From an uncultured Opitutia bacterium (lineage in GTDB: Bacteria; Verrucomicrobiota; Verrucomicrobiia; Opitutales; UBA953): 64,000 bases of DNA. Of the stretch, positions 18,780 through 58,945 are shown one piece after another. Each line of letters starts with the position of its first letter. Position 1 is the stretch's first letter. Location: assembly GCA_903855995.1 (NCBI GenBank), contig CAIOAN010000002.1, positions 124,001 to 188,000 of the forward strand, given 5' to 3'. The notes under the pieces are model-generated. The model was not told where the DNA came from, searched no databases, and worked only from the letters and a program-made list of their open reading frames with translations. A program made the position numbers and the translations under genes.

Positions 18780-18951
18780 AGGAGGGCGCGGCGGAGCCAC
18801 GCCCCACCCGTCGGCCGCACTGCGGCGGTCAGCATGAGGTAGGGGCGCGACTGCGTCGCGTCCGTTGACCAACGGCAGTCGAGGATAGCTAAGAAGTAAG
18901 TAACGACAGCGTGGCCATACGAACGGACGCCACGCAGTGGCGCCCCTACCA
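18780..18951. repeat. Paired-hairpin intergenic repeat (REPIN-like), copy 1
   Basis: This lies in the 359-base gap between the DUF3800 gene and the dihaem oxidoreductase. One hairpin (GGGCGCGAC/GTCGCGTCC, 18843-18863) follows GGTAGG and precedes GTTGACC. A second (GGACGCCAC/GTGGCGCCC, 18925-18945) follows CGAACGG and precedes CTACC. The outer ends are therefore inverted copies of each other. A third hairpin (GGGCGCGGC/GCCACGCCC, 18784-18804) lies to the left. Confidence 0.75.
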
Positions 18952-18978
18952 ATAAAAAGGGCGGCCCGAAGGCCGCCC
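18951..18978 (-). terminator. Terminator of the dihaem oxidoreductase gene
   Basis: On the minus strand GGGCGGCC-ttcg-GGCCGCCC (18959-18978) is followed by TTTTTATT. It lies 23 bases past the stop at 19002. Confidence 0.85.
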
Positions 18979-19001
18979 TAGTTAGGCGATGGACCGACGA
19001 C

Positions 19002-20261
19002 TCAGAGCGACAGGACGAAGTCGGTGAGGAGCTTCTGCTGCGCCTTGTTGAGCTTGAGGTAGCGATCCTTGACGACCTTGCCTTCACCTTCATGCGCCTT
19101 GATGGCTTCGTCAATCGTCAGCGCGCGTCCGTCGTGCAGGTAAGGAGCGCTCTGGCTGATGCCCCACAGAGGAGGCGTGCGGAACTCGCGGCCGGTGGCG
19201 GTCTCCTGAACGATGCCGTCGCCGAGCGAGCCCATGTCATGGAGCAGGAGATCGGAGAAGAGACGGACATCCTTGTTATTCAAGGCAGCAACCGGGCTGT
19301 AGCCGGTGCGCATCACGGGCGTGTGGCAGAGGGCGCAACCGAGGGTTGTGAAGATTTGCTGGCCGGCGGCGGTGGTGGGCGTGGGCTTATTGACGGGAGG
19401 AGCCGCGAGGAACTTCATGAAGTTCGCGACCTTCTCGAAGTCAGCGATGCTCGTGGCCGTAGCCTGATCTTCGGGGTCCTGCACGAGGTCATACTTCTTC
19501 AGGAGCTCTTGATTGCCGTTAGGCGCGTTCTCCGTGGGGAAATACTTATTCGTGACACCCATCTCGTTGCGGTAGGCGTCGGCGGCGAAAGCCGTGACGG
19601 TAGCCTGCTGGGCCTTCCAGCCGAAGCGGCCGGCCATGCGCTTGCCGCTGACGATATCCGTGACCCAACCCACGCGGCCGTGGATCTGCTCATTGCCATA
19701 CTGACGGGCGTTGCGGACGATTTCCGCATCAGGGATGGCTTCCATCAGACCGAGGCCGAAGAGCGGCGTGGAGTTGCGGTGGATGACCACGTTGGCGATC
19801 GAGGGTACGAACTCCTGAGCCTCCGGCACGATGGAGTTCTCCTGGAGCAACGAGCCGCCCAGGGAGTCGAGCGGATCGAACTTTCCGTGGACCGTCATGC
19901 CGAAGCGCGGGACGTTGACCGAGCTGCCGCCACCGGTGACGGGCGACGAGTGACACGAGACGCACGAGTCGCGGTTGAAGATCGGACCAAGGCCACCCTC
20001 GACCGTTTCGGCCTTCTCGAAGTCGTCCTTGCCATCGAGGAACAGATTGACCTGTTCGGCGGTGAGGCCGTTGAGGTGATCACCGAACTGCGTGATTGCA
20101 GGCCAGGTGAAGGGACGGTTGTCGCCGACGTGACCAGGCTTATGGGCGCGGACCGCGGGAGCCTTGCCGGGCTGTCCGGTGGCGGAGGGCGAATCGTTCG
20201 CAACGGCCTGTTCGGCCGCGGCGAGCACCGCGAGAAGAGCGATGATGCGTGGGTTGATCAT
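19002..20261 (-). CDS. Dihaem oxidoreductase (DHOR, DUF1111) c-type cytochrome
   Basis: The ATG at 20261 gives 419 residues with a Sec signal peptide (MINPRIIALLAVLAAAEQAVA). Two haem-binding motifs are present: CVSCH at about 100-104 and CALCH about 200 residues later. The pattern around them (RDSCVSCHSSPVTGGGS, TPPLWGISQSAPYLHDGRA) is that of dihaem oxidoreductases related to the cytochrome c peroxidase/MauG superfamily, often labelled thiol oxidoreductase. It should act in the periplasm on an unknown donor. The gene stands alone with its own terminator. The repeats on both sides are unrelated to its function. Confidence 0.88.
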   Translation of the reverse strand: MINPRIIALLAVLAAAEQAVANDSPSATGQPGKAPAVRAHKPGHVGDNRPFTWPAITQFGDHLNGLTAEQVNLFLDGKDDFEKAETVEGGLGPIFNRDSCVSCHSSPVTGGGSSVNVPRFGMTVHGKFDPLDSLGGSLLQENSIVPEAQEFVPSIANVVIHRNSTPLFGLGLMEAIPDAEIVRNARQYGNEQIHGRVGWVTDIVSGKRMAGRFGWKAQQATVTAFAADAYRNEMGVTNKYFPTENAPNGNQELLKKYDLVQDPEDQATATSIADFEKVANFMKFLAAPPVNKPTPTTAAGQQIFTTLGCALCHTPVMRTGYSPVAALNNKDVRLFSDLLLHDMGSLGDGIVQETATGREFRTPPLWGISQSAPYLHDGRALTIDEAIKAHEGEGKVVKDRYLKLNKAQQKLLTDFVLSL

Positions 20262-20394
20262 GGTTTTTTGGTTTTGGTTACGGAGCCCTGTGCGCTTCCG
20301 TAGAGACAATTAAACCATGTGCTCCGCCGATGGGAAGATATGTAGAGTTACTTTTGGATGAAGGCTAAATGAAGAGAGTATCGAGTATGGGGTG

Positions 20395-20610
20395 ACGCCA
20401 AGGCCGCCGCAGGGCGGTCGTAGTTAGGGGCGTGGCTTCGCCGCGCCCTTCTGCCTCGCTATGTTCCCAACCGCTAGCCGCCAATACCTGTTACGGAGTG
20501 CACGATGAATCGTGCCCCTACCTTGGTTCGCCCTGCGGCGAACACTCAGACAAAGACCCCCGCGCCCGGCAGGGGCGCTGTATCGTGCATTTACCAATCG
20601 ATTAAAGGGG
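20395..20610. repeat. Paired-hairpin intergenic repeat (REPIN-like), copy 2
   Basis: This fills most of the 383-base gap between 20261 and 20645. The left hairpin is GGGCGTGGC/GCCGCGCCC (20428-20448) after TTAGG. The right hairpin is GCACGAT/ATCGTGC (20500-20515) before CCCTACC. A further GTTCGCC/GGCGAAC hairpin follows (20526-20543), then degraded pieces of the same family to about 20,610. A GGCCGCC/GGCGGTC hairpin lies just left, at about 20402-20418. Confidence 0.7.
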
Positions 20611-20644
20611 TGGTCACGCATGAAGGAGTCATTAAAAAGACCTA

Positions 20645-22321
20645 ATGCCCCTGAAGCGTTTCTTTACGTACCTGCTCACCCTCCCCTGCCTGGCGTTGTC
20701 GGCCAACGAGGTCGGGCTGGAATCCACCAACCCCAGTCGCTTCGGCGCTAAGTTCGTTGAAGCCAGCGGCAAGTTCGCCGCGGAGTTCAACGGCGAGCAT
20801 GGCATATTCTCCTTCGTGAGTTTTGCCGAGAAGGGCGAATGGTCCGTCGAGGCACAGGTCTCGATGCCCAAGGGCAAGAGCGCCACGCTGACCGGCAAGA
20901 TCGCTGGCAAGGCTTTCACGGCGGACGGCAAAGTCGAAGGCTCGGGCAAACCTGAATGGGTCGTGCTCGGAACGTTCAACACGCTCGCGGACACCCCGAC
21001 CTTTCTGCAACTTGAAGCCAAGGACCGCAAAGGCAACGTGACGTTGCACGGTTATCGCTTCACCTGCACGGCGAACAAGCAGGCCAAAGCCAGTGCCACC
21101 CCGCTGTTGCATCTCAAGACCGCGTATACGGAGTCGCCGGAAATTTCCATCGGCGACCGCGGCGGCGTCGGGGCGGCCACCATTCAAAAAGCCGGTGGTC
21201 GTCTGCTCATCCCCGTCGTGGTGGAGAAACCCGGTGCGAAGAAACTCGCCGTCCGCTTCACCGCCAGCAACAGCGCCAAGGCCACGCTCAATGTTCACAC
21301 CATCAATAATCTCAAAGTCGATGCGCTCGCCAAGACCACCCGGATCACCGTGCAACTCGACGGCACGGGCAAGCCCGCGACCTCGAAAGAATTCGCCCTC
21401 ACCTTCCCCGCCGCGGGCACTTATTTAATCGCCCTCGATGCCCAACAGGCAGTGGGAACCGTGACACTCAACGGCCTGCTGCTGGTCGGCGCGGCCAACC
21501 CCGAGCTCTGGGCGCTCCCGAACGGCAATGCGCAGTCGGTGCACTTCGGCTACGCCCTACCCAAGGGAGAGACCGCCCTCTGGGCCTATGCGGAGGCCAA
21601 GTCCCTGCCTGGGCCGCCCACAACCTACAATTGTGTACTCGGCTTCGGCCATGGCTACTTCGGTTTCCAGCGTAAGACGCCCGGCACCGAGGCGAAAGAC
21701 CGCGTGTTCATCTACTCGCTCTGGGATAACGGGTACGTAAAGAACGACGCCAAGAAGGTCAGCGCTGAAGAATTGCGCGACCTCGTCGTCACGACTGTCG
21801 CCAAAGGCGAAGGCGTCAACGCATCGGCCTTCGACCACGAGGGATCCGGCGGCCACAGCGACCTTCCGTACGCCTGGAAGGACAACGCGACGTATTCTTT
21901 CCTACTCGGCGTGAAGCCGGACGGCGATGCCGCGGTGTATTCCGCCTGGGTCAAGTTCGCCGAGACGGGCCAGTGGCGCTTTCTCACCGCCTTCCGCCGC
22001 CCCAAGACCGAGGCCAAGATCGACGGCCTGTATTCGTTCGTCGAAGACTGGTCGGGCTCCTTCGGTCAGGCCGAGCGCAAATGCCTCTACTCCAATCTGT
22101 GGATTCGGAACACCGCCGGCAAATGGGTGCCCATCAAGGAAGCCAAGAGTAGCGCCACCGCCGAACTCGGCCGCAAAGACTTCGCGCACACCATCGAAGG
22201 CAATGCCGTCGCGCTCACCACCGGCGGCTACTCCAGTAACGATGGCAAGCGCGGGGTGGTCCTCGCCATCCCTACGGGCAAAGAACCCGTGGTGGAGGTG
22301 GAGAAGTTGCCTGCGAAGTAA
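20645..22321 (+). CDS. Exported DUF5077-DUF3472 protein
   Basis: The 558-residue protein begins with a Sec signal (MPLKRFFTYLLTLPCLALSA). A beta-rich N-terminal module up to about residue 130 has no clear name. It is followed by a carbohydrate-binding-like DUF5077 region (about 150-285, with KAGGRLLIPVVVEKPGAKKLAVRF). The C-terminal DUF3472 domain (about 300-530) contains SVHFGYALP, FGHGYFGFQ and SFVEDWSGSFGQAERKCLYSNLWI. These architectures are common in Bacteroidota and Verrucomicrobiota and are linked to glycan use, but no activity is established. The gene is monocistronic, with repeats on both sides. Confidence 0.8.
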   Translation: MPLKRFFTYLLTLPCLALSANEVGLESTNPSRFGAKFVEASGKFAAEFNGEHGIFSFVSFAEKGEWSVEAQVSMPKGKSATLTGKIAGKAFTADGKVEGSGKPEWVVLGTFNTLADTPTFLQLEAKDRKGNVTLHGYRFTCTANKQAKASATPLLHLKTAYTESPEISIGDRGGVGAATIQKAGGRLLIPVVVEKPGAKKLAVRFTASNSAKATLNVHTINNLKVDALAKTTRITVQLDGTGKPATSKEFALTFPAAGTYLIALDAQQAVGTVTLNGLLLVGAANPELWALPNGNAQSVHFGYALPKGETALWAYAEAKSLPGPPTTYNCVLGFGHGYFGFQRKTPGTEAKDRVFIYSLWDNGYVKNDAKKVSAEELRDLVVTTVAKGEGVNASAFDHEGSGGHSDLPYAWKDNATYSFLLGVKPDGDAAVYSAWVKFAETGQWRFLTAFRRPKTEAKIDGLYSFVEDWSGSFGQAERKCLYSNLWIRNTAGKWVPIKEAKSSATAELGRKDFAHTIEGNAVALTTGGYSSNDGKRGVVLAIPTGKEPVVEVEKLPAK

Positions 22322-22386
22322 GCTGTGCTTACTTCGCGTGGGAACGGCTGGTAGGCTGGCATGCTGCGGACGCGCGTGAGTTGTCT

Positions 22387-22540
22387 TGGGTAGGGCGGGT
22401 TGTCCCCAACCCGCCGTTGACCGAGAGAGGACATTAAGTCGAAGGAGGTGCGCATCTCTATCCGCGAACGGACGGCTGGGGACAGCCGTCCCTACCCGAG
22501 ACAGAGGCAGGCACTAGGCGTAGCACGCGGTGCTGCACCT
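22387..22540. repeat. Paired-hairpin intergenic repeat (REPIN-like), copy 3
   Basis: The left hairpin is GGCGGGTTG/CAACCCGCC (22394-22415), preceded by GGGTAG and followed by GTTGACC. The right hairpin is GGACGGCTG/CAGCCGTCC (22470-22491), preceded by CGAAC and followed by CTACCC. Both stems are perfect and differ in sequence from the other copies. A third hairpin, AGGCGTAGCAC/GTGCTGCACCT (22516-22540), follows and also ends in ACCC. Confidence 0.8.
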
Positions 22541-22611
22541 ACCCAGTGCGACGGAGTCTTGCGGGGACACGGGGACAGGGTGAACGGCTGCCCCCTTGCC
22601 CGACAGCAACA

Positions 22612-23070
22612 CTATCGGGCAATATCATTCCGCCCGAGGACGGTGATGCCGTGGCTAGAGAGGACGGAGGCGGCGAGTTCCTGGGCTTCGGTGCGGACGA
22701 CTAGGCCGTAGCGACCGTTCGGGCGAAAGAGGAAGGGGTAGACGTAATGGATGTTGATCTCGGCGCGCAGCAGCACGCCCGTGACATCCTTCAACTGGGC
22801 TTCGGATTGAAGTTCGATGGCGACGACCGGAACGTCGTCGTGCGCGAAGTGATGCTCGTCGAGAATCTGTTCCGCGCGCTCGGGATAATCGACCACGATG
22901 CGGATGATGGTGGAATCCGTCGTGTCGACCAGGCAAAGCGCCATGATATGAACATCGGCGCCGGCCAGCGATTCGACCAACTCGTGGAGTCGGCCGACCT
23001 TGTTCTCGACAAAGATGGAGAACTGGCGGACAGGTCCGAGGTCAGGTTGCTGGGAGATATCTGCGGCCAT
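22612..23070 (-). CDS. Tandem ACT-domain protein
   Basis: The start at 23070 gives 152 residues (MAADISQQPDLGPVRQFSIFVENKVGRL). Two ACT-like repeats are visible: VRQFSIFVENKVGRLHELVESLAGADVHIMALCLVD (about 14-49), and a second from about 80 with AIELQSEAQLKDVTGVLLRAEINIHYVYPF. ACT domains bind amino acids and regulate metabolic enzymes. Stand-alone tandem ACT proteins are often called acetolactate synthase-like or amino-acid-binding proteins, but no partner is encoded nearby. It is divergent from the TonB receptor gene, with a 65-base shared promoter gap. Confidence 0.85.
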   Translation of the reverse strand: MAADISQQPDLGPVRQFSIFVENKVGRLHELVESLAGADVHIMALCLVDTTDSTIIRIVVDYPERAEQILDEHHFAHDDVPVVAIELQSEAQLKDVTGVLLRAEINIHYVYPFLFRPNGRYGLVVRTEAQELAASVLSSHGITVLGRNDIAR

Positions 23071-23135
23071 CGGAAAGACATGATGACAATCCCGCCGATT
23101 TTCTCCAGCCCCTTTTAGATTGAGGGGGAGAAACA

Positions 23136-25025
23136 ATGCTGAATTGTCCCGAAGTGCTGCCCTTGTTCGCATTCTTCCTCGCCCAGACCCCCACCCGCCT
23201 GCCCGAGACGGTCGTGGTGGAAACTCGGCAGGCCGCCCCGCTGGCAGAGGCCTCGCCTTCGGTTTCGCGCCTAGATGCGGGTACTGCCAGCGAACAAGGT
23301 ATCTCCACCCTGACAGGTCTCCTCGGCTCGGCACCCGGAGTCTACGCCACCGAACAATCCGGCGAAGGCTCGGTCGGCTCTCTCCTCATTCGTGGCACCA
23401 ATTCGTCACAGACCGCGGTGCTACTCGATGGCCGCCGCCTGCCGCAGGGCTTCTCCAATAGCTACGAAATCGGGCGCTACCGGATCTTCGGATTATCGTC
23501 GGTCGAGATCATGCGCGGCCCGTCGTCGACCCTCTACGGCGCCAACGCTCTCGGCGGGGTCGTGGACCTGCGCCTACCCGACCCGTTGACCGACAAGAGC
23601 GGCGGCACCCTCAATCTGGAGGCCGGCGCCTACGGACGTACCTCGCTAGGTTTCAGTTATCTCACCAATAACGCGGATGGGAAATCTGCGGCCACGCAGG
23701 GCACCGCCTTCGCGCTGACCACGTCGCACGACGACGGCTGGCGCGTGAACGGCGCAAGGGAAGCCTCGACCGGGCTGCTCAAATCGGAATGGCGCCTATC
23801 CGCGAATCTCGTCTTCGACCTGATCGGCTCCGTCGATCGCGGCAACGCCGGTCTCCCCGGGCAAGCCACGAACAGCATCCCTGCGAGCGGCGACCCCAAC
23901 GACTGGCAGAAAGACCGCGGCTGGATGCTTTCGCCCGGCCTCCGTTACGACACCGACACCTTGAGCGCCGTCGCTTTCTGGTCACATGGCGGCTCGACCG
24001 TCACCAGCTACGTCGACGGCACCGACCCTTTCTACGGGCCTTATCTTTATTATCAGAAATTCAACCTCGACCGCGACGAGCTCACCGCGTTCGCCGACTG
24101 GAAGGTGCGGCGCAACCTCACCCTGGGACTCGGCCTGAGTTATGAGAACTCGCGCTACGACCAGCAGGCCCTTGCCGCTGGCTCCACCCATTGGGAGGAC
24201 ACCATGGAAAGTTTCGGCGTGTGGACGCGCGCGGATTGGCGGGCGACCGAGGCGGATCGTTTCCGCGCCGCGGTGCGTCGCGATTCCTTCAGTGATTTCG
24301 CCGGCAAGACCACCGGCGAGTTCTCCTATGCGCGCACCCTGAGCAAGGAGCTCACCCTGCACGCCAAGGCCGCCACCGCAGACCGCGCCCCGTCGGCCAA
24401 CGACCTCGCTTACGGCACGTCGGGCGGCCTGCCGCTACGCCCCGAAGCGAACACCGGCTACGAAGTCGGCTTGCGGCACGAGGACGCCGTCCCCAACGCA
24501 CTCAACTGGACGCTCGTTGCCTTCCAGAACAACCTCACCGACCTGATCGACTACAACCCCGTCGACTACAAGACCTTCAACATCGCCAAAGCCCGCACCC
24601 AGGGCATCGAACTGGGCGCGGAGGCCCGGCCCGCCAAAGGCTTGCGCGTGTTCGGGGCAGCCACCTACCTCGATAGCAAAGCCCTGACCGATTACGCCGG
24701 CGTCGTGACTGCCGGCCAGCCCTTGCTCCGCCGGCCGCACTTCGTCCTTTCGCTCGGCACGGAAATCACCCCAAACGAAAACTGGACCTTCGGCGCCGCC
24801 CTCAATGTGCAGCACGGGCGCGTCGACTATGACTGGAACAGTTATGCGCGGATTAACCTACCCGACGCGACGTTCTGCCGCCTGTGGGTGCGCTATGCCT
24901 GGAACGATCAGACCGAACTCTCCCTACGCATTGAAAACCTTTTCGGTGAAACCGCCCCACCCACCGCCCTTGGCTACGGAGCCCAGCCGCGGTCGGCGTA
25001 TGTGGGGCTGACGCGTAAATTCTGA
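23136..25025 (+). CDS. TonB-dependent outer-membrane receptor (BtuB-like)
   Basis: The 629-residue protein has a short N-terminal export segment and a TonB-box-like TRLPETVVVETR. The plug domain follows (TLTGLLGSAPGVYATEQSGEGSVGSLLIRGTNSSQTAVLLDGRRLP and RVEIMRGPSSTLYGANALGGVVDLR-like). The 22-strand barrel ends in the aromatic terminus YVGLTRKF that outer-membrane assembly needs. The size and plug resemble the BtuB/FepA class rather than the large SusC class, so cobalamin or a metal chelate is a plausible substrate. A good ribosome site (GAGGGGGAG) stands 6 bases before the ATG. No transporter genes adjoin it. Confidence 0.9.
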   Translation: MLNCPEVLPLFAFFLAQTPTRLPETVVVETRQAAPLAEASPSVSRLDAGTASEQGISTLTGLLGSAPGVYATEQSGEGSVGSLLIRGTNSSQTAVLLDGRRLPQGFSNSYEIGRYRIFGLSSVEIMRGPSSTLYGANALGGVVDLRLPDPLTDKSGGTLNLEAGAYGRTSLGFSYLTNNADGKSAATQGTAFALTTSHDDGWRVNGAREASTGLLKSEWRLSANLVFDLIGSVDRGNAGLPGQATNSIPASGDPNDWQKDRGWMLSPGLRYDTDTLSAVAFWSHGGSTVTSYVDGTDPFYGPYLYYQKFNLDRDELTAFADWKVRRNLTLGLGLSYENSRYDQQALAAGSTHWEDTMESFGVWTRADWRATEADRFRAAVRRDSFSDFAGKTTGEFSYARTLSKELTLHAKAATADRAPSANDLAYGTSGGLPLRPEANTGYEVGLRHEDAVPNALNWTLVAFQNNLTDLIDYNPVDYKTFNIAKARTQGIELGAEARPAKGLRVFGAATYLDSKALTDYAGVVTAGQPLLRRPHFVLSLGTEITPNENWTFGAALNVQHGRVDYDWNSYARINLPDATFCRLWVRYAWNDQTELSLRIENLFGETAPPTALGYGAQPRSAYVGLTRKF

Positions 25026-25267
25026 AGAATTTGCGAAGGGGCGCCTAGTTTGGTGAACGGCTGCGGCGCCGGCGCGAGGGGGGACTGCTGGCAGGCTGCG
25101 AAGCAAAGCCTTAACCCGAATCTGCAAGTTATTAACAGCCAGCCGCACGGACGTTGGGCGGCGATTCCTGAAATATCTTCGCCGCCGTTCACCAAGCCAG
25201 CCGACCCCCGCCCTTGGTTGCATGATTGCATCTCCGGCCGAGATGGGCAAAGTTCGGCTCCCTCCGC

Positions 25268-25720
25268 ATGAGCCGGTATTACTTCGCCTACGCTTCCAAT
25301 CTGGATTCCGCCCAGATGGAACGCCGTTGCCCTGGCTCCAGCTACCGCGGCAAGGCCTTTCTACCCAAGCACCGCATGGCTTTCACGCATCCCAGCACCA
25401 CGTGGGGTGGCGGCGCGGCGGATATTCTGGAAGACCAAGACACCCCAGGCGTCTGGGGAGCAATCTACGAGATGAGTGCCGACGACTGGAAGCGCATGGA
25501 TGAGGCGGAAGGCACGCCCTACAAGCGCATCCCACTCACCGTTCTCGAAGCCGGTTTGGAAGACTGCCCGCTCGATTGCCAGGCCTATAAAGTCGTCGAC
25601 CCGACCGGCCCGCACCTGCCTTCGAAGCTCTATCACGAGAAGATCGTCCGCGGCGCCCTGGCCCGCGGCCTGCCCGCCGGATGGATTGCCTGGCTGCGCG
25701 GCCTGTCGACCAAATCCTAA
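25268..25720 (+). CDS. Gamma-glutamylcyclotransferase-like protein
   Basis: The ATG at 25268 gives 150 residues opening MSRYYFAYASNLDSAQMERRCPGS, the YxSNL nucleotide/substrate loop of the GGCT/AIG2 family. The catalytic glutamate region follows (GVWGAIYEMSADDWKRMDEAEG), and the end is a typical HEKIVRGALARGLPAGWIAWLRGL. These enzymes release 5-oxoproline from gamma-glutamyl peptides. It is followed after one base by the glycosylase gene, so the two are co-transcribed, although the functions look unrelated. An in-frame TTG upstream would lengthen it without adding conserved sequence. Confidence 0.88.
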   Translation: MSRYYFAYASNLDSAQMERRCPGSSYRGKAFLPKHRMAFTHPSTTWGGGAADILEDQDTPGVWGAIYEMSADDWKRMDEAEGTPYKRIPLTVLEAGLEDCPLDCQAYKVVDPTGPHLPSKLYHEKIVRGALARGLPAGWIAWLRGLSTKS

Positions 25721-25721
25721 G

Positions 25722-26273
25722 GTGGCCAAGCCGAAGCCACGTTGCTTCTGGTGCGGAGAGGATCCGCTTTATGTGGCGTATCACGACGACGAATGGGGCG
25801 TGCCCGTGCACGATGATCGCCTGCTCTTCGAACAACTCATCCTCGAAGGCGCGCAAGCCGGCCTCTCGTGGATCACCGTGCTGAAGAAGCGTGAACATTA
25901 CCGTAAAGCCTTCGCGAACTTCGACGTCCGCAAGGTCGCACGCTTCGACGCCAAGAAGGTCGACACGCTCATGGATAATCCCGGCTTGATTCGTCATCGC
26001 GGCAAACTCGAATCCGTCGCCCTCAACGCGCGCGCCTTCGTTGCGATGCAGGACGAGTTCGGCAGCTTTTCGAAATGGCTCTGGGCGCACGTCGACGGCA
26101 AGCCGATCGTCCGACGCTCGCGCACCCATCAGCCGACTTCGCCCTTGGCCGAACAGATTTCCAAAGAACTTAAGCAGCGCGGCATGAAATTCGTCGGCCC
26201 GACCATCATCCAAGCCACCCTGCAGGCCGTGGGCGTGCTCGACGAACACCTCCCGGGGTGCTGGAAGGCGTAA
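25722..26273 (+). CDS. tag: DNA-3-methyladenine glycosylase I
   Basis: The GTG at 25722, one base after the upstream stop, gives 183 residues that line up with E. coli Tag from end to end: CFWCGEDPLYVAYHDDEWGVP, LEGAQAGLSWITVLKKREHYRKAF, NPGLIRHRGKLESVALNARAF and KFVGPTIIQATLQAVGVLDEHLPGC. The zinc ligands are present: the N-terminal cysteine, the histidine in YHDDEWG, and the C-terminal His and Cys in DEHLPGC. It removes 3-methyladenine from alkylated DNA in the cytoplasm. Coupling to the GGCT-like gene suggests a shared promoter. Confidence 0.95.
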   Translation: MAKPKPRCFWCGEDPLYVAYHDDEWGVPVHDDRLLFEQLILEGAQAGLSWITVLKKREHYRKAFANFDVRKVARFDAKKVDTLMDNPGLIRHRGKLESVALNARAFVAMQDEFGSFSKWLWAHVDGKPIVRRSRTHQPTSPLAEQISKELKQRGMKFVGPTIIQATLQAVGVLDEHLPGCWKA

Positions 26274-26324
26274 GCACAAAGAGGACCGGAGGCCCAGAGG
26301 CTCGGAGGGCCAGAAAATTGATTA

Positions 26325-26365
26325 ATCGCCCCTACCCTCGGCCGCCCTGCGGCGGCCTTTATCGT
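26325..26365. repeat. GGCCGCC hairpin fragment of the intergenic repeat family
   Basis: CGCCCCTACCC precedes a GGCCGCC-ctgc-GGCGGCC hairpin. It is an isolated piece of the same family seen at 18.8, 20.4, 22.4, 37.9 and 58.9 kb. Confidence 0.55.
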
Positions 26366-26489
26366 CCATCCGCCATCTTTCATCTTCGGGAGGAACTTCC
26401 CGCCCGCATATCACTCCAATACGGTGGACAGCGGGGGGCGGTTTAATCAATCCTGCCCCCTGCCCCCACCCAACCCCATTTCCAATCAC

Positions 26490-29048: not shown

Positions 29049-29070
29049 GTAAGGCGAAAGCCTCAGGATA

Positions 29071-29100
29071 AAAGGCCCGGTTCACGCCGGGCCTTTTTGT
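29071..29100 (+). terminator. Intrinsic terminator after the DUF6797 gene
   Basis: AAAGGCCCGG (29071-29080) pairs with CCGGGCCTTT (29087-29096), with a 6-base loop and then TT. It is nearly symmetric and could work in both directions. Confidence 0.85.
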
Positions 29101-29153
29101 TGGGGGCTTGCCTGACACGCGGATTATCGCCCCAATGCAGGCAGCCCGCTGCC

Positions 29154-31148: not shown

Positions 31149-31154
31149 GACCTG

Positions 31155-31275
31155 ATTAGGATTAGGGGCGGGGGTAGGGATAGGGGTGGGTAATATTTAA
31201 TTACGCCTAAGTAATTAATGAATAAGTTCTTAGGAAAATAATCCTGCCCCTACCCCTGCCCCGACCCCTTCTTCT
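31155..31275. repeat. Inverted G-rich/C-rich intergenic element
   Basis: A G-rich arm (GGGGCGGGGGTAGGGATAGG, about 31163-31182) is answered by a C-rich arm (CTGCCCCTACCCCTGCCCCG, about 31244-31263) across an AT-rich centre containing TAATATTTAATTACGCC and TTAGGAAAATAA. The ends resemble the GGTAGGG/CCCTACC ends of the hairpin repeats. The remaining sequence to 31373 shows no gene. Confidence 0.55.
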
Positions 31276-31373
31276 CGGATACTTTTTACCGTTATTCGGT
31301 TAGGTCGCGCCTAGGAACAATCTCGACTAAGGCGGTATCTTATTATGCTCCGTCTCTACCCCCAGTCCTATCT

Positions 31374-32927
31374 ATGTCCCAACTACATCGTCGTACGTTC
31401 ATCAAGAACTCTGCCTTGGCTGCCGCCGTGGCGGGCCTCAGCGCCCAGACCTACGCCCAGTCCGCTGGCGCCAACGGTGACCTCCGCGTCGCCGTTGTCG
31501 GCTTCCGCAGCCGTGGTCAGGAGCACATCAAGGAGCTCCAGAAGATCAAAGGCGTCCGCATCGTCGCGCTATGCGATCCAGACTCGAAGGTCCTCGCCAA
31601 GAGCATGAAGGCCATTCCTGGCGCCAAGGGATATGCCGACATCCGCAAGATGCTCGAAGACAAGGATATCGACGCCGTCTCCATCGCCTCCCCGAACCAC
31701 CAGCACTCCATCCAGGGTATCTGGTCCCTCCAGGCCGGCAAGCACCTCTACGTCGAGAAGCCCCTCTCGCATAATATCTTCGAAGGCCAGCAGCTCGTCG
31801 CCGCCTCGCAGCACTTCTCCAAGCAGATCGTCCAGGCTGGCACGCAGAGCCGCTCGGGCGCTGGTATCCGCGCCGCCATTAAGGACGTCCACGCCGGCAA
31901 GTACGGCAAGGTGAAGCTCGCCCGCGCCATCTGCTACAAGCGCCGCAAGTCCATCGGCGCCGCCAAGAAGAGCGAAATCCCTTCCGAAATCGATTACGAC
32001 CTCTGGAACGGCCCGGCCGACATCCAAGAATCCGTCCGCGGCCATGAGTCCGACAAGGTCAACGAGGCAGCGAACAATGGCCCGGTGCACTATGATTGGC
32101 ACTGGTTCTGGAACTACGGCGGCGGCGACCTTTGCAACCAGGCGATCCACGAGATCGACATCGCCCGCTGGTTCCTCGGGACCCATGAAGTCGCCCCTGA
32201 GGTCGTCTCCGTCGGCGGTCGCTTCGGCTACGTCGATTGCGCCGAGACCCCGAACACCTTCGTCTCCATCCACAACTACGCCGCCGCCCCGCTCATCACC
32301 GAAGTCTACGGCCTCACCGCCGACGGCAAGATGAACGGCCCGTCGAACAAGTTCGGCCAGTTCAAGGAGAGCAACTCCGGCGAGAAGTCCGCCAAGTCCC
32401 CTGAGATCGGCATCATCGTCGAGTGCGAGAACGCCACCATCGTCGTGCCTGACTACAACTCCGCCCAGGTCTATGACAAGGACGGTAAGTTCGTGAAGTC
32501 CTACGGTAAGACCGTCGACGCCGTCGACCTCACCGGCGGAGCCTCCGGCCACCACGCCAACTGGGTCGAATGTATTCGCAAGGGTTCCGCTGCGAACATC
32601 CACGCCCCGGTGCGCGAATGTTTCCTCTCCACCGCCCTCGTCCACTCCGCCAACATCTCCTACCGCGTCGGCGCGAAGAAGAGCGCCGGCGAGATCAAGG
32701 AAGCCATCAAGGCAAGTTCCGGTCTCTCCGAGGCCTTCGGTCGCATGGCCGAGCACCTCGGCCGTAACGGCGTCAACCTCGACGAAGCCAAGGCCACCCT
32801 TGGCGCTCCGCTTACCGTGGACACCAAGACCGAGCTCTTCACCGGCGCCAACGCCGAGGTCGCCAACCGCGACCTCGTGGCCAAGCGCACCGGCCGCAAG
32901 GGCTTCGAGATCCCAACCACGTTCTAA
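31374..32927 (+). CDS. Tat-exported Gfo/Idh/MocA-family oxidoreductase
   Basis: The 517-residue protein starts with a twin-arginine signal (MSQLHRRTFIKNSALAAAVAGLSAQTYAQ). The Rossmann fold follows (DLRVAVVGFRSRGQEHIKELQKIKGVRIVALCDPD), with the EKP catalytic motif in HLYVEKPLSHN and a C-terminal domain containing NWVECIRKGSAANIHAPVRE. Such proteins bind NAD(P) and oxidise or epimerise sugars or polyols. The Tat signal means it is exported folded, with cofactor bound. Gfo/Idh/MocA and DUF1080 proteins are often encoded together, as here. A terminator separates it from the DUF1080 gene. Confidence 0.9.
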   Translation: MSQLHRRTFIKNSALAAAVAGLSAQTYAQSAGANGDLRVAVVGFRSRGQEHIKELQKIKGVRIVALCDPDSKVLAKSMKAIPGAKGYADIRKMLEDKDIDAVSIASPNHQHSIQGIWSLQAGKHLYVEKPLSHNIFEGQQLVAASQHFSKQIVQAGTQSRSGAGIRAAIKDVHAGKYGKVKLARAICYKRRKSIGAAKKSEIPSEIDYDLWNGPADIQESVRGHESDKVNEAANNGPVHYDWHWFWNYGGGDLCNQAIHEIDIARWFLGTHEVAPEVVSVGGRFGYVDCAETPNTFVSIHNYAAAPLITEVYGLTADGKMNGPSNKFGQFKESNSGEKSAKSPEIGIIVECENATIVVPDYNSAQVYDKDGKFVKSYGKTVDAVDLTGGASGHHANWVECIRKGSAANIHAPVRECFLSTALVHSANISYRVGAKKSAGEIKEAIKASSGLSEAFGRMAEHLGRNGVNLDEAKATLGAPLTVDTKTELFTGANAEVANRDLVAKRTGRKGFEIPTTF

Positions 32928-32940
32928 GCTCCTCCGATTA

Positions 32941-32973
32941 AGCGGAGCGGTCGCAAGGCCGCTCCGCTTTTTC
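32941..32973 (+). terminator. Intrinsic terminator after the oxidoreductase gene
   Basis: AGCGGAGCGG (32941-32950) pairs with CCGCTCCGCT (32959-32968) and runs into TTTT. Confidence 0.88.
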
Positions 32974-32998
32974 ATTTCTAAACCAAATCACACACACC

Positions 32999-34573
32999 AT
33001 GAAAAAGACCCCGCTCACCCTGAGCCTTACCACGGCCGCCGCCCTCTTCATCGCGGGCTGCGCCAGCAATGACAAGAACACTACCCAGCCCGGCGCCACG
33101 AAGACCGCCGCCGCGGCCACCAACCCCGCTCCGGCCACCCCCGGCGCACCAAAGGCCAACCCGAACAAGGTCGAGATCTTCAACGGCAAGGACCTCGCTG
33201 GTCTCGTCGCCAAGGGCGGCGCGGCCAAATATTCCGTCAGCCCCGAGGGCTACCTCGTCGGCACGGCCGTCGCCAACACGCCGAACTCGTTCCTCGCGAC
33301 CGATAAGAACTACGCGAACTTCGTCCTGGAATATGAATTCCTCGACGATCCGCGCCTGAACTCCGGCGTGCAGATTCGCAGCCACGCCGAGGCCAAGGAC
33401 GTCAACTACAAGGACTACGCCACCGGCAAGATGATCAAGATCCCCGCCGGCCGTGTCCACGGCTACCAGGCCGAGATCGACACCAACCCGAAGAACATGA
33501 ACAAGGCCGACGGCGCCGCCCGCCAGTGGACTGCTGGACTTTATGAAGAAGGCCGCCGCGGCTGGCTCTCGCCTCGTATCGAGACCCCCGAAGCCCTCGC
33601 CTTTTCTGTGCAAGGCCGCAAGCTGACCAAGGTCAACGAGTGGAACAAGGTGAAGATCGAAGCCAACGGCCCCCACATCCGCATGTGGCTCAACGGCGAA
33701 CCGCGCGTCGATCTCCGCGACGACGGCTATGCGACCGGTTTCATTGCCTTCCAGGTGCATGGCATCGGCAAGGACACCGCGATGGAAGGCGCCGAAGTCA
33801 AGTTCCGCAACATCGCCCTCACGAAGATCAATGACAACAGCCTGACCGACTCCGAGAAGGCCGACGGCTGGAAGCTCCTCTTCGACGGTCGTAGCAACAA
33901 GGGCTGGCGCTCCGCCAAGGGCCCGGACTTCCCCAAGGAAGGCTGGACCATCGAACGGGGCCAATTCCATACCGCCGCTTCGGGCGGCAAGGAATCCGCC
34001 GCCGCCGGCGACATCATCACCATCGCCCGCTTCAAGCAGTTCGAAGTCTCCGTCGACTTCAAGCTCACCAAGGGTGCGAACAGCGGCCTGAAATATTACG
34101 TGCAGCCCGACCTCAACCAGGGCGCCGGTTCGGCCTTCGGTCTGGAATTCCAGATGCTCGACGACGCCGTCCACCCGGACGCCAAGCTCGGCCGCGACGG
34201 CAACCGCACCGTGGGTTCGTTGTACGACCTGATCACCGCGCAAAACAAGCGCCCCAACCCGATTGGCCAGTGGAACAACGCCTACGTGATTACCAAGGGC
34301 AGCAAGGTCGAACACTGGCTCAACGGCCGCCTCATCGTCTCCTACGATCGAAACACCGATGACTTCCGCGCCCTCGTGGCGAAGTCGAAATATGCCGACC
34401 CCAAGTATGGCAAGAACTTCGGCGAGTGGGCCGACGGTCACATCCTCCTCCAGGAGCACGGGGACGAAGTCTGGTTCAAGAACGTGAAGCTCCGCGACCT
34501 CGCCCCCAAGCCGGCCGCCAAGGGTGCGAAGAAGGCTCCGGCCAAGAAGGCCGACGCCCCTGCTCAGAAGTAA
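32999..34573 (+). CDS. Lipoprotein with two DUF1080 (3-keto-disaccharide hydrolase-like) domains
   Basis: The 524-residue protein has a lipoprotein signal (MKKTPLTLSLTTAAALFIAGC; lipobox cysteine 21). An Ala/Thr/Pro linker follows, then two DUF1080 concanavalin-like folds. The first runs from about 58 (VEIFNGKDLAGLVAKGGAAKYSVSPEGYLVG) to 280. The second runs from about 292 (WKLLFDGRSNKGWRSAKGPDFPKEGWTIERGQFHT) to 500. The end is a Lys/Ala-rich tail. DUF1080 enzymes hydrolyse 3-keto-glycosides, and a Gfo/Idh/MocA oxidoreductase that could make the 3-keto sugar is encoded just upstream. Two domains in one lipoprotein suggest either two activities or one catalytic and one binding domain. Confidence 0.88.
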   Translation: MKKTPLTLSLTTAAALFIAGCASNDKNTTQPGATKTAAAATNPAPATPGAPKANPNKVEIFNGKDLAGLVAKGGAAKYSVSPEGYLVGTAVANTPNSFLATDKNYANFVLEYEFLDDPRLNSGVQIRSHAEAKDVNYKDYATGKMIKIPAGRVHGYQAEIDTNPKNMNKADGAARQWTAGLYEEGRRGWLSPRIETPEALAFSVQGRKLTKVNEWNKVKIEANGPHIRMWLNGEPRVDLRDDGYATGFIAFQVHGIGKDTAMEGAEVKFRNIALTKINDNSLTDSEKADGWKLLFDGRSNKGWRSAKGPDFPKEGWTIERGQFHTAASGGKESAAAGDIITIARFKQFEVSVDFKLTKGANSGLKYYVQPDLNQGAGSAFGLEFQMLDDAVHPDAKLGRDGNRTVGSLYDLITAQNKRPNPIGQWNNAYVITKGSKVEHWLNGRLIVSYDRNTDDFRALVAKSKYADPKYGKNFGEWADGHILLQEHGDEVWFKNVKLRDLAPKPAAKGAKKAPAKKADAPAQK

Positions 34574-34594
34574 GCCTCGACTGAGGCTCCCGCG

Positions 34595-34628
34595 AAGGCC
34601 GGACGACGCAAGTCGCCCGGCCTTTTCT
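34595..34628 (+). terminator. Intrinsic terminator after the DUF1080 gene
   Basis: AAGGCCGGACGAC (34595-34607) pairs with GTCGCCCGGCCTT (34612-34624), with one mismatch, across a GCAA loop. A short T-rich tract follows. Confidence 0.8.
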
Positions 34629-34693
34629 TTGGTCCAGCAGGTGAGGCGTTGCATGGGCCAAGCAACCGGCTTTATTAGCCCTCACCCCGAGCC

Positions 34694-36253
34694 ATGCGCC
34701 CCTCTCTGCTCCTTGCCGCCCTCTTCGCCGCCTTCACGGCGCTCGGCGCCGCCGAGACGAAGCGTACCAATATCCTCTTCATCATCGCCGACGACTGGGG
34801 CCACGGCCATGCCGGAGCCTATGGCTGCCCCTGGGTCAAGACCCCGAACTTCGATCGAGTGGCCAAAGAAGGCCTGCTCTTCCTCAACGCCTACACGCCG
34901 ACCGCCAAGTGCACGCCCTCGCGCTCTTCAATCCTGACCGGCCGCCACCCTTGGCTGCTCGGCGCCGGCGCCAATCACCAGTGCATCTTCCCGCCGGAAC
35001 ATGAGACCTTCCCCGACGTCCTGGAACGCAACGGCTACACCTACGCCAGCTGCGGAAAAGTCTGGGCCCCCGGACTCTCGCTCAAAGCTGACGGCTCCAA
35101 ACGCAGTATGGCCGGGAAGCTTTTCAACAAACGCTGGGCGACGCCGCCCGCCACAGGCATCGCCCAGACCGATTACGCCGCTAACTTCCACGACTTCCTC
35201 CAACAAACCAAAGTCGATCAACCTTGGTTCTTCTGGCTGGGCTTCCATGAACCGCACCGCGATTACGAAGAAGGCAGCGGCCTACGTCTCGGCAAGAAAC
35301 TGACCGACGTCGATCATGTCCCCGCCTACTGGCCCGACAACGCCGTCATCCGCGGCGACATGCTCGATTACGCAATCGAAGTGGAGCACTGTGACCGCCA
35401 TCTCGGCTTGATTCTCGATGACCTCGAGAAGCGCGGTGAACTGGACCGCACGCTCATCATCGTCACCAGCGACAACGGCATGCCTTTCCCCCGCGTGAAA
35501 GGCAGCACCTACGAGGACGCCAATCATCTCCCGATGGCGGCCCGCTGGCCGGCGGGCATCAAGAACCCCGGCCGCAAGGTCACCGATTACATCAGCTTCA
35601 CTGATTTCGCCCCGACCTTCCTCGAGGTCGCCGGCGTGGCCTGGCCTGATCACGGGCTCGCACCCACCTCCGGACGCAGCTTGACCGATACGTTCCGCAG
35701 CGGCGTCGACGGCCGCAGCAACCCCGCCCGCGACCACGTGCTCATCGGTCGCGAGCGTAATGACCTAGGCCGACCCGGCGACGTCGGCTATCCGATTCGC
35801 GGCATCGTCAAAGACGGACTCGCCTATCTTGAGAACTGCGAACCCTCCCGCTGGCCGGCCTGCAACCCCGAGACAGGCTACCTAGATACGGACGCCAGCC
35901 CGACCAAGTCTTTCATTCTCCATGCGCGCCGCGAGAAAGGCAGCGACCCCTTCTGGAACCTTTGCTTCGGTATGCGCCCCGGGCGGGAATTCTACGATCT
36001 CGCCGCGGACCGCGACTGCGTGGAGAACCTGGCCGCGGCGCGCGCCGCGGACGTCGAGAAACTACGCGCGCAAATGTGGTCCGAGCTCAAGGCCGCCGGC
36101 GATCTCCGCGCGATCGGTCGCGGCGCCGAATACGAAGCCCATCCTTCCGCCGACGTGAAGAAACTCCGTTTCTACGAACGTTATATGGGCGGGGAACTCC
36201 TTGAGGCCAACTGGGTCAAACGTGACGACTTCGAGAAAGAACCCCTTAAATGA
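34694..36253 (+). CDS. Exported sulfatase 1 (iduronate/N-sulfoglucosamine type)
   Basis: The 519-residue protein has a Sec signal (MRPSLLLAALFAAFTALGAA) and the formylglycine signature CTPSR at 73-77, where Cys73 would be converted to formylglycine. The metal-binding aspartates are in IADDW (31-35) and SDNGMP, and VKTPNFDRVAKEGLLF is the second family motif. The length suits the type I sulfatase family. It should remove sulfate esters from sulfated glycans in the periplasm. Its stop overlaps the ATG of the next sulfatase gene, so the two enzymes are made together and probably act on successive sulfates of one polymer. No formylglycine-generating enzyme is encoded in the window. Confidence 0.92.
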   Translation: MRPSLLLAALFAAFTALGAAETKRTNILFIIADDWGHGHAGAYGCPWVKTPNFDRVAKEGLLFLNAYTPTAKCTPSRSSILTGRHPWLLGAGANHQCIFPPEHETFPDVLERNGYTYASCGKVWAPGLSLKADGSKRSMAGKLFNKRWATPPATGIAQTDYAANFHDFLQQTKVDQPWFFWLGFHEPHRDYEEGSGLRLGKKLTDVDHVPAYWPDNAVIRGDMLDYAIEVEHCDRHLGLILDDLEKRGELDRTLIIVTSDNGMPFPRVKGSTYEDANHLPMAARWPAGIKNPGRKVTDYISFTDFAPTFLEVAGVAWPDHGLAPTSGRSLTDTFRSGVDGRSNPARDHVLIGRERNDLGRPGDVGYPIRGIVKDGLAYLENCEPSRWPACNPETGYLDTDASPTKSFILHARREKGSDPFWNLCFGMRPGREFYDLAADRDCVENLAAARAADVEKLRAQMWSELKAAGDLRAIGRGAEYEAHPSADVKKLRFYERYMGGELLEANWVKRDDFEKEPLK

Positions 36254-37845
36254 AAACCGTTCTCTTGCTGCTGGCCTTGGCCGCCGCTTCGCTTTCCGCC
36301 GCGGAGACGACCGAGCGCCCTAATATCGTCTTCTGCTTCGCCGATGACTGGGGTCGCTATGCGGGCTTCCTGGATAAGGTCGACGGCGGCCGCCCGAGCC
36401 TCAATCAAATCATCAAGACGCCCAACATCGACCGCATGGCCGGCGAAGGCGCCGTCTTCCGCAACGCCTTCGTGACCGCCCCGAGCTGCACCCCGTGCCG
36501 CAGTTCCCTGCTCTCCGGGCAATACTTCTTCCGCACGCACATGGGGGCGATCCTCAGCGGCGCACGCTGGGATAGCGCCATCCCGACCTACCCGCTTATG
36601 CTGCAAGACGCCGGTTATCATATCGGCAAAATGTATAAAGTCTGGAGCCCTGGTACGCCAGCCGACGCCCCCTACGGCGGACAGAAAAATGCCTTCGAAA
36701 AAGCCGGTCGCGCCTACAACCGCTTCTCCTCCAACGCCACGCTGATGGTCAAGGACGGCAGCACGTTCGAAGCCGCCAAGGCGAAGCTCCTCGGCCAAGT
36801 CCGCACAAACTTCCAATCCTTCCTCGACGCCAACAAAGCGGGGAAGCCTTTCTGCTTCTGGTTCGGGCCCACGCTCACCCACCGCAGTTTTGAGAAACAT
36901 TCAGGCGTCAACCTCTGGAAGATCAATCCCGACGACCTCAAAGGGAAACTGCCCTCCTTCCTCCCTGATGTTCCCGAAATCCGGGATGACGTGGCCGACT
37001 ACATGGGCGAAATCCAGGCCTGGGATGCCGGCGTCGGTGAAATCATCGCCGAGCTCAAGGCCCGCGGACAATTTGACAACACCATCTTGGTCATCAGCGG
37101 CGATCACGGCATGCCCGGTGTCCCGGCCGGCAAGTGCAACCTCTACGACCACGGCACCAACGTCGCGCTCATCGTGCGCGGACCCGGCGTGAAGCCCGGG
37201 CGGATCATCGATGACTTCGTGAACCTGATGGACTTAGCTCCCACGTTTCTCGATATCGGCCACGTCGCGACCCCTGCCGTCATGACTGGACGCAGCATCC
37301 TGCCGCTCCTGAAGTCGGAACAAGCCGGCCAGGTCGATCCCACCCGCACCTGGGTCGTGACCGGACGCGAACGCCATGTCGGTATCGCCCGCGAAGGCAA
37401 CCTGCCCTACCCGCACCGGGCACTACGCACTAAGGATTTTCTCTATATCCGTAATTTCGCACCCGAACGCTGGCCCATGGGTTCACCCAATTTCACCGGG
37501 CGCACGGACATGCCCTCGCTCGAAGAAATTGAGAAGACCACTTTTGTGACCTTCGCCGACATGGACGCCAGCCCCACCAAGGCTTGGGTCGTGAATCAGT
37601 TCGATAATCCCCAGTTCAAATGGAGCTTCGACCACGCCTTTGCCAAGCGCCCGGCCGACGAACTCTACGACCTGGCCAAAGATCGCGATCAGATGAAGAA
37701 CGTGGCCGAGGATCCAGCCTACGCAGATACCCTCAAGCGCATGCGCAGCCAACTTATGACGACGCTCGTCAAAGCCGAAGACCCGCGCGTCACCGGCGAC
37801 GGCTCCACGTTCGATAAACCGCCCTTCACGGTCCAGGCGAAGTAA
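36250..37845 (+). CDS. Exported sulfatase 2
   Basis: The start overlaps the previous stop (ATGA). The 531-residue protein has a Sec signal (MKTVLLLLALAAASLSAAE), the acidic metal site FADDW (30-34), and the formylglycine signature CTPCR at 80-84. Cysteine replaces the more usual serine at position 4 of the motif, which still fits CxPxR. The block VISGDHGMP supplies further metal ligands. It differs clearly from sulfatase 1, so it is a distinct member and not a recent duplicate. It is the last gene of the pair; a hairpin repeat follows. Confidence 0.92.
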   Translation: MKTVLLLLALAAASLSAAETTERPNIVFCFADDWGRYAGFLDKVDGGRPSLNQIIKTPNIDRMAGEGAVFRNAFVTAPSCTPCRSSLLSGQYFFRTHMGAILSGARWDSAIPTYPLMLQDAGYHIGKMYKVWSPGTPADAPYGGQKNAFEKAGRAYNRFSSNATLMVKDGSTFEAAKAKLLGQVRTNFQSFLDANKAGKPFCFWFGPTLTHRSFEKHSGVNLWKINPDDLKGKLPSFLPDVPEIRDDVADYMGEIQAWDAGVGEIIAELKARGQFDNTILVISGDHGMPGVPAGKCNLYDHGTNVALIVRGPGVKPGRIIDDFVNLMDLAPTFLDIGHVATPAVMTGRSILPLLKSEQAGQVDPTRTWVVTGRERHVGIAREGNLPYPHRALRTKDFLYIRNFAPERWPMGSPNFTGRTDMPSLEEIEKTTFVTFADMDASPTKAWVVNQFDNPQFKWSFDHAFAKRPADELYDLAKDRDQMKNVAEDPAYADTLKRMRSQLMTTLVKAEDPRVTGDGSTFDKPPFTVQAK

Positions 37846-37893
37846 GCGGAAATGAGAGTATAGAGTTTGGAGTATTGAGTATCGGGGCTAACA

Positions 37894-37967
37894 GGTAGGG
37901 ACAGCACCACGTGCTGTCCTTAGTCCGAACCTACAGCCTAGGTCAGCACGCAGTGCTGACCCTACCC
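37894..37967. repeat. Paired-hairpin intergenic repeat (REPIN-like), copy 4
   Basis: This is the most compact copy. GGTAG is followed by GGACAGCAC-cac-GTGCTGTCC (37899-37919), and GGTCAGCAC-gca-GTGCTGACC (37941-37961) is followed by CTACCC. Both stems are perfect 9-base pairings. The element lies between the converging sulfatase and proC genes. Confidence 0.85.
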
Positions 37968-58779: not shown

Positions 58780-58945
58780 GATCAGTTGAACCGTTGGTCA
58801 GTTGGCCAGAGGAGAGGCATGCACCCCAAAGGAGACCCGGGACCGGAATGTGAGATGGGGCACTGACCAAGAGAACGGGCACGCCGTAGCCGCGCCCCTA
58901 CCCGCGGCCGCCATTCGGCGGCCGTTCCCGCCCCTATAAATCGAT
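58780..58945. repeat. Decayed hairpin-repeat region before the sugar dehydrogenase-like gene
   Basis: The 271-base gap contains GTTGGTCAGTTGGCCAGA (about 58793-58810), which recurs in slightly changed form at about 61744-61760. It also holds a degraded GGGC...GCCC hairpin ending in CCCCTACCC (about 58876-58903), and a GCGGCCGCC-attc-GGCGGCCG hairpin. All are pieces of the intergenic repeat family. No gene is evident. Confidence 0.55.

Follow-up and report, generated by a model that had tools for sequence, protein, structure and literature searches.

Repetitive extragenic palindromic (REP) sequences with a GTAG foot form a described superfamily (Di Nocera 2013, PMC3733652), in which most stems measure 6–9 bp, alternative complementary residues occupy the stems within families, and head-to-head dimers occur, with heterodimers preferred in most families. 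The verrucomicrobium Opitutus terrae is described there as highly enriched in GTAG REPs, among them GTAG-17 with head-to-head dimers 1–2 bp apart. The foot, stem length, alternative complementary stem residues and heterodimeric head-to-head arrangement recur in a 64,000-nucleotide stretch (hereafter the window; G000:C2:124001-188000) of the genome (2.66 Mb, 13 contigs) of an uncultured Opitutia bacterium, the likeness to the O. terrae REPs holding by description and not by consensus sequence. In contrast to the superfamily as described, inverted pairs within 150 bp never had identical stems in the sequences examined here. We are highly confident that the repeats of the window are GTAG REPs linked to REP-associated tyrosine transposases (RAYTs), many of them in head-to-head pairs (REPINs), that they are probably moved by RAYTs, that the two halves of a pair probably have to differ, and that one of the four window copies (copy 4) is a chimera. 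Anatomy, RAYT linkage and phylogeny together place the repeats firmly in this family. A previous sequence-only reading of the window had called the repeats REPIN-like, which fits their GTAG-tagged hairpins, inverted doublets and class-matched RAYTs, and had placed them in no named family; a described family, O. terrae included, does exist at the level of superfamily and mechanism (PMC3733652).

Three other described systems are close. In Stenotrophomonas and fluorescent Pseudomonas (Nunvar 2013, PMC3686654), as here, many REP classes (13 and 22) each have their own RAYT, stenotrophomonad REPs carry 8–9 perfect base pairs adjoining GTA/GG, and two slightly different REPs are sometimes served by one RAYT. 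They differ in that the foot here is GTAGGG, partly because it was searched for, and in that, for about half of the classes here, a single RAYT is accompanied by two distinct stems sharing one loop. The REPINs of Pseudomonas fluorescens SBW25 (Bertels and Rainey 2011, PMC3116915) are likewise mobile, RAYT-tied inverted REP doublets; their ends, however, are alike and one long hairpin is predicted, whereas the halves differ here and two hairpins are predicted for 44 of 85 dimers. The short perfect stems also resemble those of the TnpAREP group 3 of Stenotrophomonas and Marinomonas (Corneloup 2021, PMC8266576), for which loop bases are reported as critical, stem letters as largely replaceable, mismatches as harmful to cleavage and GTAG as a guide. 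From REP shape, the RAYTs here would probably fall into this group 3. No text on REP-associated tyrosine transposases of Opitut- bacteria was found in the literature searched. For the specialist, the value of the present repeats is the strand test, the distance-dependent lack of identical inverted neighbours and the class richness within one genus.

All four intergenic copies of the sequence-only reading were found in the window, between long open reading frames (the extragenic position was checked for these four copies), with boundaries slightly shifted. From the outer end inward, each half consists of G-GTAG, followed directly by a 9-bp stem, a loop of 2–4 nt and the return arm. Copy 1 (REPIN; 18838-18950) has the left stem GGGCGCGAC, the right stem GGGCGCCAC, the loop TGC in both halves and one G-T wobble per half. 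Copy 2 (REPIN; 20423-20522) has GGGCGTGGC-TTC on the left and GGGCACGAT-TC on the right, and copy 3 (REPIN; 22389-22496) has the stems GGCGGGTTG and GGACGGCTG, left and right, with the loop TCCC in both halves. Copy 4 spans 37894-37966 and comprises a left half on the plus strand (37894-37920; REP GGACAGCAC-CAC) and a right half on the minus strand (37940-37966; REP GGTCAGCAC-TGC). Stems measure 9 bp in copies 1, 3 and 4 and close to 9 bp in copy 2. Of the eight halves, seven have the GTAGGG tag; the exception is the left one of copy 2, which carries GTTAGGG (tag GTTAG). The inner motifs GTTGACC and CGAACGG were both found only in copies 1 and 3.

The abundance of the hairpins was estimated in a non-random sample of 464 kb of the same genome, comprising the window and 20 further stretches, of which C10:40001, C13:140001 and C3:1 were chosen for known hits. 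With a fixed score for stems of 5–14 bp and loops of 3–12 nt, a hairpin followed 81 of 268 GGTAGG sites, nearly always with a 9-bp stem and a 3–4-nt loop, as compared with 52 of 2144 sites for eight scrambled anchors (8/369, 1/113, 12/287, 7/232, 6/132, 10/534, 6/271 and 2/206). The strict paired pattern GGTAGGGN{20,50}CCCTACC occurred at 39 places in the 2.66-Mb genome and its reversed control at none. The looser pattern GTAGGGN{51,81}CCCTAC occurred at 37 places and its control at 10, so some of these matches look like chance or other repeats. A covariance model was built from 57 distinct loop-3 hairpins, selected as fully paired, so that their 100% pairing is by construction; 180 cells of this set changed on both sides, against 51 in shuffles, and none of 500 shuffles scored as high. 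Pairs changed on both sides were found at seven of the nine stem positions across the hairpin set. The earlier observation that the arms differ and still pair, mostly over 9 bases, is thereby borne out. The model search that had been proposed for the genome and its relatives yielded at least 173 matches at E<=10 in the own genome (150 of 1467 first-look candidates scored) and, under stricter filters at E<=0.01, matches in 62 of 79 family genomes (53 of 55 in the genus, 9 of 24 in other genera). Rfam, at gathering score, returned no repeat match in the window, only tRNA.

Adjacent hairpins in the scanned loci formed 112 head-to-head, 37 tail-to-tail and 87 head-to-tail pairs, duplicates included; removal of duplicates left 90 distinct head-to-head dimers. 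Ordinary miniature inverted-repeat transposable elements (MITEs) of a DDE transposase, with GGTAGGG...CCCTACC as terminal inverted repeats, would have such symmetrical ends and would also vary in presence between relatives, as these copies do. Yet each half alone forms a hairpin, 206 hairpins lie outside head-to-head pairs beside the 112 dimers (duplicates again included), and the classes track Y1 transposases, so this explanation, for which no search aimed at DDE transposases was made, is given practically no credence.

The RAYT-type transposase whose search had been suggested was found in three short Y1 forms in the own genome (C10:43033, C13:144445 and C7:324505). Each is flanked on both sides by one REP class of its own, the classes being GGTTGAGCG/GGCTGACCA with the loop CCCT, GGGCGTGCG/GGATGACCG with the loop GCC and GGATGCGAT with the loop GAC. 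Against PF01797, the protein of C10:43033 (L001) scored 28.2, above the cut-off of 23, and that of L003 scored 22.8, just below it; the TnpArep structure 4er8 is a solved relative (E 2.4e-7). Residues H70, H72 and Y123 are invariant between L001 and L003, and we take them to be the HUH motif and the catalytic tyrosine. Two of the own RAYTs are 92% and 96% identical to RAYTs of metagenome-assembled genomes of uncultured Opitutae (L024, L025).

RAYT loci were examined for 51 of 68 matches plus two further loci, the remaining 17 matches being mostly partial or weak; the RAYTs are identical in L024/L028 and in L025/L027, and several loci overlap on the same contigs. Tagged hairpins lay within ~420 bp of the RAYT in 51 of these 53 loci, and the loci of congeners followed the same plan with other stems. 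Some 18 stem/loop classes were distinguished across the family loci, two of them from another genus and about 16 within one genus. In a maximum-likelihood tree of 52 RAYTs, which excludes L049 (10 aa before a stop), each of the 11 multi-member classes occupied one side of a branch, and so did the two-member label "no REP". The 20 labels, including "no REP" and one unclear locus, required 19 changes, which is the minimum, compared with a shuffled mean of 40.6; class reference stems and tree labels were assigned by eye, with the reference stems taken partly from the own genome.

The stems had been described before as freely varying. If they drifted freely, with the apparent classes a side effect of copy number, changes on both sides of the pairing at seven of the nine stem positions would be natural. 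However, 81 of 84 GTAGGG hairpins of the own-genome sample were at most three differences, with arms and loop counted, from 13 RAYT-linked classes, the references being partly from the same genome, and the classes agree with the RAYT tree without a single extra change; free drift is therefore regarded as extremely improbable. The stem diversity is the footprint of many RAYT lineages, a situation also known from stenotrophomonads and fluorescent pseudomonads (PMC3686654). Of the 81 assigned hairpins, 31 belong to three classes with a RAYT in the own genome, and 50 have their cognate RAYT in other species. Copies 1, 2 and 4 are of the latter, orphan sort, with the RAYTs of their classes in congeners (sister species); the class of copy 1 flanks RAYT genes in L048 and L051, and that of copy 2 flanks one in L090. 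The roughly 16 RAYT/REP classes of one geometry within one genus amount to a natural mutagenesis set, in which GTAGGG, length and pairing are shared by all classes, the loop and the apical pairs tend to be shared within a class, and the middle of the stem is not shared even between the two halves of one element.

By analogy with the published enzymes (PMC8266576), a RAYT, as an HUH/Y1 enzyme, would bind the folded single-stranded REP, guided by GTAG, and would then cleave and move the unit; the loop would provide a specific contact, and the stem would serve mainly as a paired rod. The letters of the rod would be free to change as long as pairing was kept, and a RAYT and its flanking REPs would diverge jointly into new classes. 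That RAYTs drive the movement is suggested by the family identity, by differences between orthologous sites and by the published biochemistry of other family members.

Selection on structure, one of the two causes named by the sequence-only reading for the maintained pairing, was examined through the strand on which mismatches fall. In 149 distinct hairpins with at least seven of nine Watson-Crick pairs, read on the GTAG strand, the non-pairs comprised 61 G-T, 12 A-C and 54 others. Random transitions would produce G-T and A-C equally, and the 473 hairpins at other anchors, used as a control, gave 86 G-T and 88 A-C. With the two basal pairs excluded, where a fixed G permits no A-C, the ratio was 56 to 12. 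The bias was present in the left (22:2) and right (16:1) halves of 64 distinct head-to-head dimers (38:3 in sum), and in hairpins outside such dimers (35:9). As both halves are biased although their GTAG tags lie on opposite strands, the counts argue for selection on single-stranded DNA, each half being folded from the strand that bears its GTAG. For comparison, TnpAREP of E. coli and Stenotrophomonas is reported to be active on the REP strand and inactive on its complement, and in Stenotrophomonas stem mismatches or loop changes hurt cleavage more than exchanged stem letters (PMC8266576).

G-T pairs in GTAG REPs have been taken as a sign of RNA function (PMC3733652). Hairpins acting in transcripts as terminators or mRNA stabilisers, with pairing kept by selection on RNA folding, would be in keeping with the position of the four window copies between long ORFs and with the tolerance of G-T. 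But the GTAG strands of a dimer's two halves are opposite, so that selection on a single transcript could favour G-T in one half only, and both halves are biased; the pattern expected from RNA selection, G-T in one half and A-C in the other, was seen in one dimer, and G-T in both halves in six. The RNA reading of PMC3733652 thus does not fit here, and we consider RNA-level elements very unlikely, although the hairpins may later have gained an added RNA role. The count of G-T against A-C on the tagged strand tells DNA-level from RNA-level selection in inverted repeat pairs by sequence alone. In the literature searched, no paper treated REPs, wobble pairs and transposases together, and absence of the strand test from all print is not claimed.

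The other cause that had been named, copying of one arm onto the other, would operate through template switching or hairpin-primed repair and give palindromic drift without selection. In its favour, among the 51 distinct hairpins with perfect stems, 16 pairs of stems are exactly one compensated base pair apart. Such copying is nevertheless unneeded and, overall, unlikely: G-T wobbles common to a whole class are retained in more than one genome, by both halves alike (GGGCGCGAC...GTCGCGTCC), A-C mismatches are scarcer than G-T where symmetrical copying predicts no such bias, and stems are common to a RAYT clade. It may supply part of the compensated changes. Selection on the folded single strand is retained as the account of the pairing.

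The two halves of a dimer were then compared by distance and orientation, with counts taken after removal of duplicate loci. Among distinct pairs 15–150 bp apart, the arms were identical in 40 of 151 direct pairs and in none of 150 inverted ones. Restricting the comparison to like loops gave 32 of 72 direct pairs, spread over nine loci, and 0 of 100 inverted pairs. Inverted pairs 150–1500 bp apart had identical arms in 15 of 299 cases, in 13 loci. Identical stems were absent from all 64 distinct head-to-head dimers. In the 44 dimers whose loops are at most one base apart, the halves agree in 84–98% at stem positions 1, 2, 5, 8 and 9 and differ mainly at positions 3, 4, 6 and 7, and of the 121 base pairs that differ between them, 98 have both bases exchanged and are Watson-Crick in each half. 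The longest uninterrupted match between halves is 6–13 bases in natural dimers and 24–26 in homodimers, and a long hairpin was computed for 170 of 170 artificial homodimers.

Since identical REPs are tolerated as direct neighbours and as inverted partners far apart, but were not found as close inverted partners, we infer that long palindromes are probably purged. Two identical facing REPs within ~150 bp would amount to an inverted repeat of 24–26 bp, which might be deleted or cut by an SbcCD-like nuclease, or in which a single long hairpin might replace the two REP hairpins; the halves of one REPIN would thus have to differ. Such a folding conflict is a second possible cause of the difference, partly supported by the computed structures. 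The proposal that dimers are obliged to fold as two hairpins held in part only (44/85). The heterodimer preference has been reported as having no obvious explanation, with palindrome purging offered as an idea (PMC3733652), and this was the only paper in the literature searched that treats RAYT, heterodimers and REP together.

A combined reading can be formulated, to which we assign about an even chance: the stem would be a pairing-only rod on single-stranded DNA, one half per strand; the halves would differ through palindrome purging; and GTAG and the loop would carry the RAYT specificity, so that one RAYT could move an element with two stems. If true, it would answer the question of PMC3733652 on the heterodimer preference and overturn its view that G-T pairs point to RNA function. 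The distance-dependent lack of identical inverted neighbours also turns a published, unexplained preference into one open to direct experiment.

Several results weigh against the account given so far. On the side of the transposases, the NCBI RAYT model NF047646, although the best-scoring family, gave 74.8 bits for L001, 75.8 for L003 and 50.4 for L002, below its cut-off of 80, and the support for the RAYT name therefore comes from Pfam, 4er8 and the REPs on either side. One RAYT clade of two (L092 and L099) had no GGTAGG- or GGTGGG-tagged hairpin nearby, and its substrate may have another foot. Copy 3 has no exact RAYT-flanking match among the loci examined, its nearest class, TCC_d, being at distance 5 on the left and 3 on the right. 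When the strand bias was collapsed by position, letters and loop, it fell to 43:12, and copies share descent, so that p-values overstate independence. The loops of the two halves were identical in 30 of the 64 distinct dimers and at most one base apart in 44, and stem position 9 differed in 55% of the own-genome pattern set (33 of 39 hits used, six dropped for a poor half); the sharing of loop and apical pairs between halves is thus a tendency. The ban on identical halves appears weaker in shuffles: within families, in a set that includes duplicate loci, ~4.3 identical head-to-head pairs were expected and 60 of 5000 shuffles had none, and in the own-genome pattern set 4.2 were expected and 20 of 5000 had none. 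Finally, the energy calculation on 85 dimers gave two hairpins for 44, one long interrupted hairpin for 37 and a mixed outcome for 4.

Orthologous sites of the four copies were compared among relatives. Exact insertion junctions were sought at all four sites and none was precise, the spacers being too diverged. Presence or absence varies among congeners for copies 2, 3 and 4, with gain and loss not told apart in each case. The orthologous spacers of L115-L118, where both flanks aligned, lack copy 2, which was also not seen in L119-L121, where one flank aligned. At the site of copy 3, the same class follows the same flanking sequence in L057, with further copies after it; the spacers of L059 and L061-L064 contain no REPIN, and that of L060 contains one of a different class. 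REPs in other mixtures surround the site of copy 1 in relatives; L109 and L110 show no more than a fragment there, and in L101 and L102, the closest two by flank, the sequence continues into another gene.

At the site of copy 4, L069, L071, L072 and L076 carry a solitary CAC-class REP, an extra gene and a REPIN with the stems TCACGAC/TCAGCAC. The left half of copy 4 is orthologous to the solitary REP before the extra gene in L069, L071, L072, L073, L074 and L076, and the right half to the right half of the REPIN after the extra gene in L069, L071, L072 and L076. Since the window joins the left REP to the right half of the relatives' REPIN, copy 4 is a chimera of two elements kept apart in relatives, and not one inserted unit. 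Loss of the gene between the solitary REP and the REPIN is the simplest route to it, and the varied arrangements allow others: the left REP is present and the REPIN missing in L073 and L074, the solitary REP is missing and the same REPIN adjoins the left gene in L077, and REPs are lacking altogether in L078. The small gene between REP and REPIN in several congeners (L069 821-1470), missing at 37921-37939 of the window, possibly encodes a membrane protein, judged from its sequence.

Weaker REPs were also present in the window. A fragment at 18784-18808 on the minus strand has the stem GGGCGTGGC-TCC-GCCGCGCCC and a tag one base short (GGTG for GGTAG), for which reason the hairpin scan did not pick it up, and its surroundings resemble copy-2-type copies elsewhere. 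Two degenerate REPs lie on the minus strand at 22518-22543 (GGGCAGCAC-CGC class, distance 3 from the class) and at 58877-58902 (near the GGGCGGGGC-TAC class, distance 4), the second being absent from the earlier list.

Copy 2 is embedded in a larger repeated unit of ~142 bp (20402-20543), with extra GC-rich inverted repeats beyond both ends, which matches sequences in several congeners and at C7:82256 of the own genome with 79–86% identity over nearly the full length and resembles a composite bacterial interspersed mosaic element (BIME). A different repeated element occupies the spacers of L059, L061-L064, L115, L117 and L118. One of its ends carries GGCATGGTGAACTGCTGCGAAGCAG-like sequence, which in some copies recurs in inverse form close to the opposite end, and a remnant of the element may survive where the copy 3 spacer of the window begins. 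Besides the three short RAYTs, the own genome encodes a longer RAYT-like protein of 310 aa (L002 1450-2382; G000:C13:102391) with matches to REP_Tyr_transpos and Y1_Tnp, both below cut-off, and its 3.3-kb locus contains no GGTAGG site. Degenerate short repeats of the GAGTAT type (e.g. GAGTATAGAGTTTGGAGTATTGAGTATCGGGG) adjoin several REPs, in the window at 37860-37886 and 20374-20396, and in L109 and L110.

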